From Myxococcales bacterium (GTDB lineage Bacteria; Myxococcota; Myxococcia; Myxococcales; Myxococcaceae), in the NCBI GenBank assembly GCA_020846875.1, contig JADLDB010000074.1, positions 62,001 to 126,000 of the forward strand: a stretch of 64,000 nt of DNA, given 5' to 3'. This document shows positions 10,497 through 16,586 of the stretch, in pieces. The position numbers were made by a program, and so were the translations under genes. The notes below the pieces were generated by a model. That model had not been told where the DNA came from and did no database searches. It worked only from the letters and a program-made list of their open reading frames with translations. Within the stretch, counting starts at the first letter, position 1. Each line of letters starts with the position of its first letter.

Positions 10497-11425
10497 AGGC
10501 CACGCCGCTCCAACGGCTGGAGGCCGCGCTGTCCGGCGTGGTGCTGGGGCAGCGCGCGGTGCTGGCCGACTTGATCACCTCCTTTCTCGCCCGCGGCCAC
10601 GTCCTGCTGGAAGGCGTGCCGGGCGTGGCGAAGACGCTCACCGCGCGCACCCTGGCGAAGGCGCTGGGCCTGGCCTTCACCCGCATCCAGTTCACCCCGG
10701 ATCTCATGCCGTCGGACGTGGTGGGCACCAGCGTGTTCCGCCCACAGGACGCCGGCTTCCACCTGGTGAAGGGGCCGATCTTCACCGAGGTGCTAGTGGC
10801 CGACGAGGTGAACCGTACCCCGCCCAAGACGCAGGCCGCGCTGCTGGAGGCGATGGAGGAGCGGCAGGTCACCATCGACGGCGTCACCCACCCGCTGCCC
10901 CCGCACTTCTTCGTGGTGGCCACGCAGAACCCATTGGAGCTGGAGGGCACCTACCCCCTGCCCGAGGCGCAGCTCGATCGCTTCCTGATGCGGGTGCGGG
11001 TGGGTTACCCGGACGCGGCGGCCGAGCTGGAGCTGCTCACCCGGCCGCAGACGGCGCAGGCGGCGCTGGAGCAGGTGGCGCGGGTGCTGCCCTTGGAGGA
11101 GCTCACCGCCCTGCAGGCCGAGGCGGCCAGGGTGCGCTGTGACGAGAGCGTCAGCCGCTACGCGCTGGCCCTGGTGCGGGCCACGCGCGAGTCGCCGAAG
11201 CTGAAGCTGGGGGCGTCGCCGCGGGCGGGCCTGGGGCTGTTGGCGGCGGCGAAGGCGCGCGCGGCGCTGGCCCAGCAGGGCTTCGTCACCCCGGACGAGG
11301 TGAAGGCAGTAGCGCCGTCGGTGTTGAACCACCGGCTGGTGGTGAAGGCCGAGGCCGAGGTGGACGGAGTGTCGGCCGACGACGTGATCGCCTCGCTGCT
11401 CGAGTCCGTCGAGATCCCGCGGTGA
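10493..11425 (+). CDS. MoxR-family AAA+ ATPase
   Basis: 310 residues beginning at a GTG inside the GTGA overlap with the preceding gene. Walker A is LLEGVPGVAKT, Walker B is VLVADEVNRTPPKTQAALLEAMEE, and sensor 1 is FVVATQNPLELEGTYPLPEAQLDRF broken into family-typical blocks. Arginine-finger and C-terminal lid segments follow. MoxR ATPases act as chaperones that assemble metal- or protein-dependent complexes together with VWA/DUF58 proteins. The DUF58 gene follows directly with another 4-base overlap, forming the standard pair. Confidence 0.93.
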   Translation: MKATPLQRLEAALSGVVLGQRAVLADLITSFLARGHVLLEGVPGVAKTLTARTLAKALGLAFTRIQFTPDLMPSDVVGTSVFRPQDAGFHLVKGPIFTEVLVADEVNRTPPKTQAALLEAMEERQVTIDGVTHPLPPHFFVVATQNPLELEGTYPLPEAQLDRFLMRVRVGYPDAAAELELLTRPQTAQAALEQVARVLPLEELTALQAEAARVRCDESVSRYALALVRATRESPKLKLGASPRAGLGLLAAAKARAALAQQGFVTPDEVKAVAPSVLNHRLVVKAEAEVDGVSADDVIASLLESVEIPR

Positions 11426-12753
11426 GGTCCGCGGTGAGCGGCCGTCCCGTCCCCACGCAGCGCGCGCTGGTGATCGCCGCCGCCGGTCTGCTGCCCGCGT
11501 CCCTGGCGCTCTTCGCGCCGCCGCTCGCGTGGGCTGCGCTGGCGGTGGATCTCGCGTTGCTCCTCCTGGTGGCGGCGGACTTCCTGCGCGCGCCCGGCGA
11601 GGAAGCTCTCCGCGTGGAGCGGCGGGTGGAGCCCAACCTCTCCTCGGGGGTGCCGAACCGGGTGCGGCTGTTGCTCTCGCAGGCCCCCGGCGCGCGCGGC
11701 GAGCTGGTGGGCGAGCTGCGCGATCTCGTCGGCCCCGGGCCGCTGGTGGAAGGACACCGCCAGCCGTTCGCCTTCGAGGGGCGAGCCAGCCTGGAGTACT
11801 CGGTGACGCCTCGCACGCGCGGCGACCTGCTGCTGGGGCCCTTGACGGTGCGGCTCCTGGGCCCGCTGGGGCTGTGCGCGCGGCAGCTCACCCTGCCCCT
11901 CACGCACGCGGTGAAGGTGTTCCCGGATCTCTCCGCGCTGTCGAAGGACGCGCTGGCGCTGGCGCGCTCCAACGAGGACGCGGCGCGGCGGGTGATGCGG
12001 GTGCGCGCTGAAGGCCGGGAGTTCGAGTCGCTGCGCGAGTACCGTCTCGGGGACGATCGCCGCACCATCGACTGGAAGGCGACGGCCAGGAAGGCGCGGC
12101 CCTTCGTCCGGGTGCACCAGCCCGAGCGTAACCAGCAGGTGCTGCTCCTGCTGGACTGCGGGCGGCACATGGCCGGGGAGGTGGACGGCCGGCGCAAGCT
12201 GGATCACGCGGTGGACGCGGCACTGCGGGTGGCGCGGGTGTCGCTCGATCGCGGCGACCTGGTGGGCGTGCTGGCGTACGGCGCGGCGGTACAGGCGTGG
12301 CTGCCGGCGCGCAAGGGCCGCGAGCAGCTCCGGGCGATCGCCCACGCGCTGTACCGGGTGCAGGCCACGCTGGAGGAGAGCGACCTGGGCAGCGCGCTCG
12401 AACTCGCCTTCGCGCGCGGGGTGCGGCGAACGCTGGTGCTGGTGATGACGGATCTGTTGGACGCGGACTCCTCGGCGGCGCTGGTGAAGCGCACCGCGCG
12501 CCTGGTGCCCCGGCACCTTCCCCTCATCGCCTCCCTGCGGGACGAGGCGGTGCATCGGACCGCCACCCGGGCGCCGGAGGATCGCCTCGCGGCCTATGAG
12601 CGCTTCGTCGCCTCTCGGCTGGAGGACGACGCGCGGGCCACGGTGGCCCGACTGCGGGAAGCGGGCGCACGGGTGCTGCGGGCGTCGGCGGCGGACTTCG
12701 GGGCGGCGACGGTGGGCGCCTACCTCGATCTCAAGGGGCGCGGGGTGCTGTAG
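11422..12753 (+). CDS. DUF58 membrane-anchored VWA-like protein
   Basis: 443 residues with a GTG start overlapping the moxR stop. Two N-terminal membrane segments (about 15-55) precede an Ig-like beta region. The DUF58 motif REYRLGDDRRTIDWKATAR lies around residues 205-225. The following VWA-like segment has LLLLDCGRHM in place of the MIDAS DxSxS, so the metal site is degenerate, as is usual for DUF58. With MoxR it likely forms a chaperone module at the inner membrane. Confidence 0.9.
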   Translation: MRSAVSGRPVPTQRALVIAAAGLLPASLALFAPPLAWAALAVDLALLLLVAADFLRAPGEEALRVERRVEPNLSSGVPNRVRLLLSQAPGARGELVGELRDLVGPGPLVEGHRQPFAFEGRASLEYSVTPRTRGDLLLGPLTVRLLGPLGLCARQLTLPLTHAVKVFPDLSALSKDALALARSNEDAARRVMRVRAEGREFESLREYRLGDDRRTIDWKATARKARPFVRVHQPERNQQVLLLLDCGRHMAGEVDGRRKLDHAVDAALRVARVSLDRGDLVGVLAYGAAVQAWLPARKGREQLRAIAHALYRVQATLEESDLGSALELAFARGVRRTLVLVMTDLLDADSSAALVKRTARLVPRHLPLIASLRDEAVHRTATRAPEDRLAAYERFVASRLEDDARATVARLREAGARVLRASAADFGAATVGAYLDLKGRGVL

Positions 12754-12796: not shown

Positions 12797-14506
12797 TCAT
12801 GCGCCCTCGTAGATCACCGGCTCCCGCGGCCGCGGCACCGGATGCGCCAGCGCCACGTCCCGCCCGGACAGCTCACGCTGGGCAGCGAGCGCGCGGTCCA
12901 CCACCTCCGCTACCAGCTCCCGATCGGCGGGCGACAACCTCCGCTCGGAGCGCAGCGTGAGGTGAGTCACCAGCGTGTCGGGCAGCGCGCGCAGCAGCAC
13001 CTCGAGGCCCTCCCATTCCTCTGCCTCGAGCAAAAGCGCGAGCCGCCCCAACCTCCCGCGCTCATCGCGGCTGAAGGTGAGCCGAAAGGTGCCCGCCCAG
13101 CGCGCCGGCCACACCGTGGCGGAGGCCACCAGCTCCAGGCACTCCAGCTTCCCGCGCGCGTCGAGTTCGCCCACCAGCGCGCCCACCCGAGGGAGGCGTG
13201 AGGGCCGCCGCTCACTGACGAGCCGGCCAGGAGAGCTGGCGAACGGCGCGGGCACCGTCACGTCCAGTTGCAACCGGGCGATCCGCCCCACCAGCGAAGA
13301 GCCGAGGTACCAGCTCACGGCGTTCTCGGTGTCGCCGCGCAGCCGCAGCGAGTGGAGCCGGAAGGACGGCACAGGGACGTCAGGCCCGGCCAGGGAGGCG
13401 AACTCGAGCAGCGCGAGGCGCTCGAGCGGGCAGCGGCGCGCGAGCTCGATGAAGGTCGGCACCGAGACGCCGAGGATCGAGTGGATCTTCTCGAGCCCAG
13501 GCGCGGCGAGGAAGGTGGACAGCCCCAGCGCCAGCCCGCCTGCGTCCAGGACCTCCAGGGTGGACCAGGCGCGGCGCTCCGGATCGGGCTGGCGGGTGGC
13601 CAGCCGCGCCTCGGACACGAAGCCCCGCCGGAAGACGACCGGGAGCGCCACCTGCCCGGCCAGATCGCCCACCCAGCGCATGCCGGACGCCGCCAGCAGC
13701 CGCCCCATCCGCTCCGACTTCCCCAGCGTCAGCTCGCCCCGCTCGTGCGCGAACTGCAGCGAGATGAACTCGCCGCGGGGATCGCCGGCCTCAGCCAGCG
13801 CGTCCGCCAGCACCAGCCGTGGCCCGTCGCTCGACGGATCCGCCCACACCGCCTCCAGCAGGCGCTCGGCGATGGCCTCGTTGGGGCTGACCCGCTCCCC
13901 CAGCAGCACGAGGAGCCGCCGCGTCTCGGCGTCCAGCGCCGGCTCCACCGGGAAGCGGCCCGACCACGCGGCGAGGATCGGCTGGAAGATGTTTGCGAAG
14001 CGCGCCTCGGCGAAGAGGAGCGGAGCGCCGCGGGGCGGTGGCTCCTGGGGGATGCGCGCCGCGGCCTCGGGAGATCCCCAGTCAAGGAGCTGCTCGAAGA
14101 CCAGGCCCCAGAAGCGGTTGCCGGCCCCCGAGAGGAAGCGCTGGCCGGTGTCCAGCTCCAGCAGCGCGAGGACGATGCGCGGATCCGGCCCGAAGCGCGC
14201 AAGCTTCTCCAGCCGGGCGATGGCGTCGGCGGGCCGCTTCGTCCAGGGGGTGGCGAGCAGCGTCGGCAGGTCTCGCGGATCCGCGGCCGACGCCACCTCG
14301 TGCCATCGCTCCTCACGGAGCCGCTGAGTGGCGCCAGAGATCGCCTCCGCGGGAAGCGCCTGGGAGAGGGCCTGGGCCAGCCGGGAGAGCTGCGAGGACG
14401 GGAGGAGCGCCCACGCGCGACAGACGAAGAGGAGCGCCTCCTCCAGCGAGGCGGCGGCCTTCGCGTGCTCGAGCACGTGCCGGGCATGGCCTTCGGGTGT
14501 GTTCAT
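12797..14506 (-). CDS. TIGR02996 repeat-companion domain protein
   Basis: 569 residues from the ATG at 14506. The block LLEAVWADPSSDGPRLVLADALAEAGDPRGEFISLQ (read in pieces, about residues 245-285) is a clear TIGR02996 domain, which in myxobacteria and planctomycetes accompanies leucine-rich-repeat-like tracts. The remaining C-terminal half alternates short Leu-rich units (LERLALLEFASLAG and similar), consistent with degenerate LRR. The N-terminal 200 residues are helical and unrecognised. No signal peptide. Function unknown, probably protein binding. Only 30 bases separate its start from the divergent nucleotidyltransferase gene. Confidence 0.75.
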   Translation of the reverse strand: MNTPEGHARHVLEHAKAAASLEEALLFVCRAWALLPSSQLSRLAQALSQALPAEAISGATQRLREERWHEVASAADPRDLPTLLATPWTKRPADAIARLEKLARFGPDPRIVLALLELDTGQRFLSGAGNRFWGLVFEQLLDWGSPEAAARIPQEPPPRGAPLLFAEARFANIFQPILAAWSGRFPVEPALDAETRRLLVLLGERVSPNEAIAERLLEAVWADPSSDGPRLVLADALAEAGDPRGEFISLQFAHERGELTLGKSERMGRLLAASGMRWVGDLAGQVALPVVFRRGFVSEARLATRQPDPERRAWSTLEVLDAGGLALGLSTFLAAPGLEKIHSILGVSVPTFIELARRCPLERLALLEFASLAGPDVPVPSFRLHSLRLRGDTENAVSWYLGSSLVGRIARLQLDVTVPAPFASSPGRLVSERRPSRLPRVGALVGELDARGKLECLELVASATVWPARWAGTFRLTFSRDERGRLGRLALLLEAEEWEGLEVLLRALPDTLVTHLTLRSERRLSPADRELVAEVVDRALAAQRELSGRDVALAHPVPRPREPVIYEGA

Positions 14507-14536
14507 CGCGTCCGCGGAACATCGTACGCTGCCGCC

Positions 14537-15001
14537 GTGGATCTGCTGGCAGAACTCGAGCGCATCGTCGATGCGATGGGGCGCGAGCAGATCGACTTCG
14601 CCCTGTGCGGTGGGCTCGCCGTGAACATCTACGGGCACGTCCGCGCCACGAGGAACCTCGACTTCCTCGTGCGCCGTGAAGCGGTCGATCGCCTCCGCGA
14701 CACGGCGGCCGGGTTGGGCTTCGAACTCCGGTCCGGCCGAATCTCCTTCGGCGCCGGGACGAAGAACGAGCGCGAGGTGTGGCGCCTCTCGAAGCCGGAC
14801 GGCCCGTCCCTCGTCAGCCTCGACCTCCTCGTCGTAACGCCAGTCTTCGAGCCCGTCTGGGAGTCCCGCCAGTCCGTCGAGTGGCGGGGACGCAGGCTCG
14901 GCATCGTCTCGTTGGGCGGGCTGGCGCTGATGAAGCGCCTCGCCTCGCGCAAGCAGGGCCTGGCCGACCTCGAAGCGCTCGGACTGGAGCAGGCCCCATG
15001 A
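14537..15001 (+). CDS. Nucleotidyltransferase-fold protein (AbiEii/DUF6036-like)
   Basis: 154 residues from a GTG at 14537. FALCGGLAVNIYGHVRATRN followed by LDFLV matches the GG-x-A and metal-binding strand of small nucleotidyltransferases. The family pattern D-h-D reads N-L-D here, so the first metal-binding Asp is Asn. A third acidic residue is present in SLDLLVV. Such proteins modify tRNA or proteins or act in toxin-antitoxin pairs. Its stop overlaps the ATG of the next gene (ATGA at 14998-15001), so the two form a translationally coupled pair. The Asn change may mean a binding rather than catalytic role. Confidence 0.72.
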   Translation: MDLLAELERIVDAMGREQIDFALCGGLAVNIYGHVRATRNLDFLVRREAVDRLRDTAAGLGFELRSGRISFGAGTKNEREVWRLSKPDGPSLVSLDLLVVTPVFEPVWESRQSVEWRGRRLGIVSLGGLALMKRLASRKQGLADLEALGLEQAP

Positions 15002-15429: not shown

Positions 15430-16233
15430 TCAGCGCGGCGCGCTCGCGAAGAAGGCCTCGGCCATGGCCACCACCCACTCCGGCCGCGTCCGCACCGTCT
15501 CGTGCCCGGTGGCGGGGAGGATCGCCAACGCGCTCCCCTTGAGCCGCCGGTGCATGTCCAGGGTGTGCTCGAGGGTGACGATGTCCTTGTCGCCGGCCAT
15601 CACCAGCACCGGGCGCTTTACGTCGGTGAGCTCCTCCATCGGGCGCGCCCAGTCCGTCCACAGCCGGCGCAGCTTCTCGGCGAAGGCGGGCCAGCGCTCC
15701 GGCGTCGGGTAGCCCTTCTTCGCCGGCCAGTCGGACGTCTTCGAGGTGGCCAGCCACTTGAGCAGCTCGGGCTTCACCCCGTCGGCCCGCCAGTTGGCCC
15801 CGGTCACCACCACCGCGTGCACCAGCTCCGGGTGCGCGCGCGCGAGAAGGAGCGCCACGATGCCCCCGTCGCTCCAGCCGAGCACGTCCACCGGCCCCGG
15901 CTTGCGCTGCGCCAGGAAGGCCGCGGTGTCCTCGGCCATCTGCTCGTAGGTGAGCGGGCGATCGAGATCCGCGGTGTGGCCGTGTCCCTGCTGCTCCGGC
16001 GCCAGCACCACGTGGCCCTTCGCCAACCGCGGCAACACCTGGCTCCAGGTGCCGTCGATGCTGGATGCGCCGCCGTGGAGCAGCAGCACCGGCGTCCCCG
16101 AGGTGCCGTGCACCTCGAAGTACATGGACAGGCCCCCGGGGAGCGCGGCGAATTCCCCCTTCGGCGGCGGCGCGGCAAAGAGGAGGACGACGAGGCAGGA
16201 GATCACCATGCGCAGCAGCTTAGGCGCGCTCAC
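15430..16233 (-). CDS. Secreted alpha/beta hydrolase
   Basis: 267 residues. A hydrophobic leader (MVISCLVVLLFAA) is followed by an alpha/beta-hydrolase fold: oxyanion loop LLLHGGASS, nucleophile elbow GWSDGG, acid in MAGDKDIV, and His in ATGHETV. It is a serine hydrolase likely exported to the periplasm. I chose the GTG at 16233 because it overlaps the upstream stop (GTGA). An ATG at 16209 would start directly at the leader and is an alternative. It follows the thioredoxin-like lipoprotein in what looks like one transcript. Substrate unknown. Confidence 0.85.
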   Translation of the reverse strand: MSAPKLLRMVISCLVVLLFAAPPPKGEFAALPGGLSMYFEVHGTSGTPVLLLHGGASSIDGTWSQVLPRLAKGHVVLAPEQQGHGHTADLDRPLTYEQMAEDTAAFLAQRKPGPVDVLGWSDGGIVALLLARAHPELVHAVVVTGANWRADGVKPELLKWLATSKTSDWPAKKGYPTPERWPAFAEKLRRLWTDWARPMEELTDVKRPVLVMAGDKDIVTLEHTLDMHRRLKGSALAILPATGHETVRTRPEWVVAMAEAFFASAPR

Positions 16234-16586
16234 TCACACTGCATCGGCCAACCGAGCTGCTGTCGGAGCGCCACGTTCGCGTCGTAGGCGTTCGCCCGAT
16301 GATCGCTGGCCGTGTACACCACGCGCCCACCACGGGTGATGACCAGGCCGTGGCTGGCCCAGTCGTACTTCTCCACCGCCCGCTTCGCCTCCGGGGCGAG
16401 GTGCGGCACCGTGCGCACCCGCACCTTCCCGTGGAACTCGCTGTCGAAGCCGCTCACGGCGGCCCGCGTCGCGTCGCAGACGCGTCAGAACTTCAAGTAG
16501 TAGTAGGTGAGCACCAGCTCGTCGTCTCGTTGGGTGGAGGCGCAACCGGCGAGCACCAGCGAGGACAGGAAGGCGAGCACGCGCAT
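16230..16586 (-). CDS. Thioredoxin-like lipoprotein with in-frame TGA (candidate selenoprotein)
   Basis: From the ATG at 16586 the frame gives a lipoprotein signal (MRVLAFLSSLVLAGC, lipobox LAGC, Cys15), then a beta strand LVLTYYYLKF, then TGA at 16487-16485, then RVC and a helix. The same frame stays open to a stop at 16230. If TGA is selenocysteine, residue 34 and Cys37 form U-R-V-C, the place of CxxC in a thioredoxin fold; total 118 residues. The codons after the TGA keep G or C in the third position, as in a translated gene. The later part includes SHGLVITRGGRVVYTASDH, like the last strands of thioredoxin-like lipoproteins. Alternatives are a 33-residue peptide plus a GTG-started second ORF, a nonsense mutation, or an error of TGC to TGA. 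Confidence 0.62.
16449..16484 (-). promoter_or_regulatory. Possible bacterial SECIS hairpins just after the TGA
   Basis: Directly after the TGA, minus strand, come CGCGTC-TGC-GACGCG (16484-16470) and GCCGC-CGTGA-GCGGC (16463-16449), both perfect stems. The second apical loop begins 26 nt after the TGA and has G at its second position. That fits the loose published rule for bacterial SECIS elements (loop 16-37 nt downstream, a G among the first two loop bases). GC-rich DNA makes such hairpins easily, so this is weak support alone. Confidence 0.35.

Follow-up and report, generated by a model that had tools for sequence, protein, structure and literature searches.

A probable new family of lipid-anchored selenoproteins with a thioredoxin fold in Myxococcaceae

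Several selenocysteine (Sec) proteins with a U-x-x-C active site have already been described. A 2026 review covers 119 prokaryotic selenoprotein (sub)families, including the Sec thioredoxins (Trx, PF00085) as well as the PF13098 thiol:disulfide interchange proteins and the TlpA/DsbG-like proteins (PMC13188914). Other small UxxC proteins, most of them identified by computational work, are represented in NCBIfam by the models SaoT (NF040730), HUIPC (NF047660) and GOS_C (NF045500). In the published bSECIS model the hairpin has a loop of 3-9 nt, located 16-37 nt from the UGA (PMC13188914, Fig 2), with G in the first two positions of the loop and in many cases G or U next (PMC13188914). Selenoproteins are seldom kept by aerobic bacteria (PMC13188914), and the main text of the review makes no mention of myxobacteria. 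One prediction method, deep-Sep, retains only candidates with a known Sec homologue or two or more Cys homologues in their top ten matches, and its authors state that selenoproteins without Cys homologues may be missed (PMC12013277).

The window, by which we mean the whole 64,000-nt stretch of DNA analyzed here, contains a gene which very probably belongs to a new bacterial selenoprotein family: a lipid-anchored envelope protein with a thioredoxin fold and a Sec-x-x-Cys active site, whose UGA would be decoded by SelB and tRNA-Sec, and which is likely an oxidoreductase. Based on comparative genomics, the insertion of selenocysteine at residue 34 (U34) is close to certain. The redox function and the location outside the cytoplasm are read from motifs and are put forward as probable.

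The gene, its relatives and its neighbors

An earlier note had marked positions 16230-16586 as a candidate selenoprotein gene, with an in-frame TGA following a lipoprotein leader. Those coordinates are correct and the gene is on the minus strand; a plus-strand reading of 16230-16586 was tried and rejected. When TGA is translated as U, the product is MRVLAFLSSLVLAGC-ASTQRDDELVLTYYYLKF-U-RVC-DATRAAV...MQCE-stop, or in full MRVLAFLSSLVLAGCASTQRDDELVLTYYYLKFURVCDATRAAVSGFDSEFHGKVRVRTVPHLAPEAKRAVEKYDWASHGLVITRGGRVVYTASDHRANAYDANVALRQQLGWPMQCE, after which comes a TGA. The lipobox LAGC, found by inspection, and residues U34 and C37 sit where the earlier note had placed them. It had also described a third-position G/C bias that continues unchanged past the TGA, and the values are indeed 0.91 on the 5' side and 0.92 on the 3' side. 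No Rfam model matched anywhere in the 64,000-nt window.

Table 1. Coordinates of the selenoprotein gene, its parts and the related features.
Feature	Position	Strand	Basis or remark
Whole selenoprotein gene	16230..16586	minus	translation with TGA=U; 118 residues, Sec at residue 34
Terminal TGA of the selenoprotein gene	16232-16230	minus	
Lipoprotein signal peptide, lipobox L-A-G-C15, predicted lipidated Cys15, +2 Ala	16542..16586	minus	sequence
In-frame TGA, U34, first position of U-x-x-C	16485..16487	minus	TGA/TGT at the site in relatives
Cys37, second residue of the UxxC redox motif	16476..16478	minus	invariant, 16/16 members
First hairpin CGCGUC-UGC-GACGCG, directly 3' of the UGA, inside the frozen block	16470..16484	minus	predicted
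Codons +1 to +11 after the TGA, synonymously constrained block	16452..16484	minus	codon homozygosity, pS
bSECIS upper hairpin GGGCCGC-CGUGA-GCGGCUU, 26 nt from UGA to loop	16447..16465	minus	pairing, covariation, published model
Alpha/beta hydrolase gene, 3' of the selenoprotein gene, GTG start overlapping the distal stop	15430..16233	minus	ORF; Abhydrolase_6, E 3.2e-20
Formate dehydrogenase alpha of the same genome (L074)	G000:C94:52925-54799		TGA at codon 82 of the matched stretch

When 60 related genomes were searched at the protein level, 8 proved to carry the gene, with one internal TGA in each. A profile search gave 16 members among the 147 genomes of the class, and a phylum-wide search of 195 genomes recovered the identical 16 genomes. 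Querying for related loci with the single protein found none. Patterns derived from the alignment were run against a collection of genomes from 84,980 species and found 12 loci, all of them myxobacterial, with titles naming Archangium, Myxococcus, Myxococcaceae, Archangiaceae or Myxococcales MAGs. Among the genomes searched, the family is confined to Myxococcaceae.

The TGA occupies exactly the same codon in 15 genomes from six genera, the window genome included, and so its presence there is far beyond chance. The motif around the site is T-Y-[YW]-Y-L-x-x-U-x-V-C. One genome, G092, has TGT at this site and so encodes Cys (L032/L039, CALNBU010000997.1), and neither TAA nor TAG was found there in any of the 16 members. 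A Cys codon in relatives, which the earlier note had proposed to look for, therefore does occur. The alignment of the 16 members has 17 invariant columns, including Cys15 (kept in 16/16), U/C34, C37, S78-H79-G80 and D95-H96-R97. Downstream of the TGA the protein is under purifying selection, with a dN/dS of 0.18-0.40 between nearer relatives.

The hydrolase gene begins with a GTG at 16233, overlapping the distal stop as the earlier note had said. A homologue of this hydrolase was found near the gene in none of the 12 related loci checked, so it is not a constant partner. In one relative (L018/L034) an ATG likewise overlaps the terminal TGA (near 1855 in L018), but it opens a different gene. 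Stop/start overlaps in two genomes suggest that ribosomes normally reach the distal stop. Translational coupling itself seems to be kept (window 16230-16233; L018) while the partner changes.

The wider neighborhood is partly shared, which supports orthology. In four Archangium loci (L034-L037) the gene is flanked by an EcsC-family gene and, on the opposite side, by a homologue of the gene at 12797-14638, an arrangement also seen in the window. L034-L037, L038 and L043 each have, near the selenoprotein gene, a homologue of the VWA-domain gene of the window. The 12797-14638 gene, on the minus strand, encodes a protein of 613 residues with no Pfam match, and its homologues in the four Archangium loci are 38-43% identical. 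In genus g5 the downstream neighbor is convergent and similar to the DUF58 gene found at 11422-12753 in the window. A second Sec was entertained for this genus, where conservation seems to continue past the stop (PAP-TGA-CRGRR), but was rejected, because a convergent DUF58-type gene on the opposite strand ends at that point and overlaps it. No single gene neighbor is common to all loci, and the neighborhood gives no hint about the substrate.

A SECIS-like hairpin and the Sec machinery

The earlier note had reported two perfect hairpins after the TGA. Both are present, and the loop of the second is 26 nt from the UGA as it had stated. The first shows no covariation and is broken in the most divergent member, so whether it has a role of its own is uncertain. 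The second hairpin, with its 7 bp, its CGUGA loop and its 26-nt spacing, is within the limits published for bSECIS elements (PMC13188914). Its stem, GGGCCGC/GCGGCUU, is 100% paired in 8 distinct sequences; two stem pairs are changed on both sides, from C-G to G-C in L029 and from G-C to U-G in L033; and the CGUG of the loop is invariant. In g5 (7 sequences) the second hairpin needs a mismatch or a bulged U. The hairpin region of the window sequence folds with -11.6 kcal/mol, which is nothing unusual for sequence this rich in GC (z -0.79), and folding energy alone was rejected as evidence. It is the conservation and the covariation, not the stability, that make the second hairpin convincing. 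When the Cys form was folded, no such hairpin was found.

The Sec forms are nearly identical in nucleotides 3' of the TGA: CGCGTCTGCGACGCGACGCGGGCCGCCGTG. From codon +1 to codon +11 the codon homozygosity is 0.95, versus 0.46 expected from codon usage, and beyond codon +11 it drops to 0.63 and 0.56. With one sequence per genus the block has 0.93 versus 0.63, and 27 of 100,000 permutations were as high. Inside the block, pairwise pS is 0.00 between the Sec forms compared and 0.76-0.79 when the Cys form is set against Sec forms; beyond the block the corresponding values are 0.36-0.54 and 0.35-0.55. This short block codes for protein and SECIS at once.

The genome from which the window was taken contains the whole Sec machinery that the earlier note had suggested searching for: SelA (574 bits), SelB (47 bits), SelD (373 bits) and tRNA-Sec (68.6 bits). 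Among the 15 genomes with a Sec form, SelB was found in 13, tRNA-Sec in 14, SelA in 14 and SelD in all 15, and none of them lacks more than one of the four components; several are incomplete MAGs. The positive control in the window genome was a formate dehydrogenase: it has CNRT-U-HAPS and, 18 nt after its UGA, a hairpin with a GGUCU loop, which shows that the Sec system there has a classical client. Because SelB was found in 125 of the class's 147 genomes, having it says little by itself, and the telling case is the Cys form. The Cys-form genome has no SelB, no tRNA-Sec and no SelA, and its best SelD match reaches 24 bits against a cut-off of 125 bits. This genome is a MAG, 79% complete, and its Cys homologue is on a contig of 3,963 bases which could be misbinned. 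By our own estimate, the chance of all four Sec components being absent together would be about 0.2^4 if they were missing independently. The loss of the SECIS constraint in the Cys form does not depend on how the contig was binned. No root was obtained for the phylogeny of the Sec/Cys change.

Two further genomes are worth recording. G031, which belongs to the Cys-form genus and is 97% complete, has tRNA-Sec, SelD, and a SelA in two pieces on two contigs; it has no SelB match and no homologue of the selenoprotein lipoprotein. It is possible that this is a lineage losing its use of Sec, or that the assembly has gaps. In G026 a SelD homologue (G026:C101:3956-4885) has one in-frame TGA and is probably a Sec-containing SelD.

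These data bear directly on two ways of reading the TGA that involve no selenium. If it were a true stop, the gene would make a lipopeptide of 33 residues and the frame downstream would be a pseudogene relic or a separate gene. TGA is also the usual terminator of these genes, which fits that idea, but the protein encoded after the TGA is conserved across 16 genomes and under purifying selection, the TGA has never become TAA or TAG and has once become a Cys codon, and the UxxC which it creates completes a thioredoxin fold. We consider a true stop extremely improbable. Hardly more credible is that the UGA is read through in some other way, by near-cognate insertion of Trp or Cys or by leaky termination, in a two-product gene without selenium. 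Such read-through would have the advantage of requiring no SECIS, but the Sec machinery is complete, the site equals that of a redox Cys, and the Sec forms have a bSECIS-like hairpin and a freeze of synonymous sites which are gone in the Cys form, whose genome has no Sec genes. We are led to favor decoding of the UGA as Sec. The candidate selenoprotein of the earlier note is, taken as a whole, supported by the conservation of the TGA, the Sec machinery, the SECIS-like hairpin and the fold.

Predicted fold and possible chemistry

AlphaFold2, run on the alignment, predicts a confident thioredoxin fold with a pLDDT of 88. The model has a strand at 24-30, the UxxC just before a helix at 35-45, a strand at 55-61, a helix at 65-74, strands at 80-85 and 88-94, and a helix at 100-111. 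The best Foldseek matches of the model are thioredoxins (E 3.2e-6), and its VIA alignments reach a Z of 12.4 with an rmsd of 1.8 over 87 residues. This agrees with the earlier note, which had seen thioredoxin-like strands in the downstream part. Sequence profiles are weakly related to thioredoxins, with a best E of 0.009. With hhalign, U34-x-x-C37 falls on C32-x-x-C35 (CGPC) of E. coli thioredoxin, in an alignment of the active-site half only with a probability of 17% and an E of 0.0014. This placement and the TGA/TGT column in the relatives bear out the claim that the TGA takes the place of the first Cys of a CxxC. In the alignment with thioredoxin 4o32, Gly80 of S-H-G appears to fall on the cis-Pro, and with the cis-Pro apparently replaced, reductase activity of the classical type is not assured. 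Based on their spacing, S-H-G and D-H-R probably lie in the two loops that, in thioredoxins, frame the active site.

From these features a mechanism can be proposed. UGA codon 34 would be read as Sec by SelB and tRNA-Sec, directed by the bSECIS hairpin lying over codons +7 to +13. The protein would then be exported and, as the lipobox implies, anchored through Cys15. By general sorting rules, an Ala at position +2 of a lipoprotein suggests the outer membrane. The protein would most likely be a selenol/thiol oxidoreductase of the envelope: the Sec34 selenolate may attack a disulfide or a peroxide-type substrate, and Cys37 may resolve the intermediate as a selenenyl-sulfide. Electrons could come from a transmembrane protein of the DsbD/CcdA type; a DsbD_TM protein was found in 8 of the 9 genomes tested, including the window genome. 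The invariant Ser-His-Gly, with Gly at the usual place of cis-Pro, and the invariant Asp-His-Arg are both placed near Sec by alignment and spacing, and would frame it.

The protein could be a selenoprotein and still perform no disulfide or peroxide chemistry, if the Sec/Cys pair instead binds a metal or metalloid at the envelope. The invariant H79, H96, Asp95 and Arg97 alongside UxxC would suit such a site, as would the Gly which apparently stands in for cis-Pro, and many predicted selenoprotein ligands are metals (PMC13188914). Against this, the fold and the position of UxxC are those of thioredoxins, and metal-resistance genes were not recognized beside the gene in the loci examined. We judge metal binding unlikely, though it deserves to be taken seriously, and the oxidoreductase remains the preferred reading. 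A bolder reading is that this is an essentially Sec-only, lineage-specific envelope enzyme with a new active-site frame (UxxC, S-H-G for cis-Pro, D-H-R) and a chemistry unlike that of thioredoxin-type reductases, whose sole Cys form arose together with the loss of the whole Sec pathway. This is offered tentatively, as something that may well turn out otherwise.

Comparison with known selenoproteins

The family adds a selenoprotein of a kind truncated at the UGA by standard gene callers, and it would place a selenol at the myxobacterial cell envelope. Its Cys form, in which the loss of SECIS constraint is matched by the loss of Sec genes, offers a clean natural experiment in selenoprotein loss. 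A single Cys member of the family turned up among the genomes searched, and the deep-Sep filter could therefore explain why the family was overlooked. A literature search found no description of a myxobacterial lipoprotein of such a kind, and by the tests made none of the 119 (sub)families in the review (PMC13188914) fits it. No Pfam model matches the family, and in NCBIfam (June 2026) nothing matched above the cut-off; the best E, about 0.02, was to an unrelated model.

Within its own genome the closest comparison is the formate dehydrogenase FdhA (L074), which likewise has an in-frame TGA and a hairpin within 16-37 nt, presumably recognized by the same SelB, but which differs in its GGUCU loop and is an unrelated molybdoenzyme. 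SaoT, HUIPC and GOS_C are similar as small UxxC proteins, but their models matched none of 8 members at E up to 1. The PF13098 thiol:disulfide interchange and TlpA/DsbG-like selenoproteins share thioredoxin-fold redox chemistry and UxxC with what is proposed here; the new family differs from them in having only about 118 residues and no Pfam or NCBIfam match at E up to 1. Sec thioredoxins have the same fold and the same UxxC at the active-site position. The family is unlike them in having a lipoprotein signal, S-H-G for the cis-Pro motif and an invariant D-H-R, and the PF00085 profile gave no match at E up to 1 to the 8 members. Selenoproteins and UxxC proteins of thioredoxin fold were thus already known, and what is new is a family which is almost wholly Sec, lipid-anchored, and found in one bacterial family in the genomes searched.
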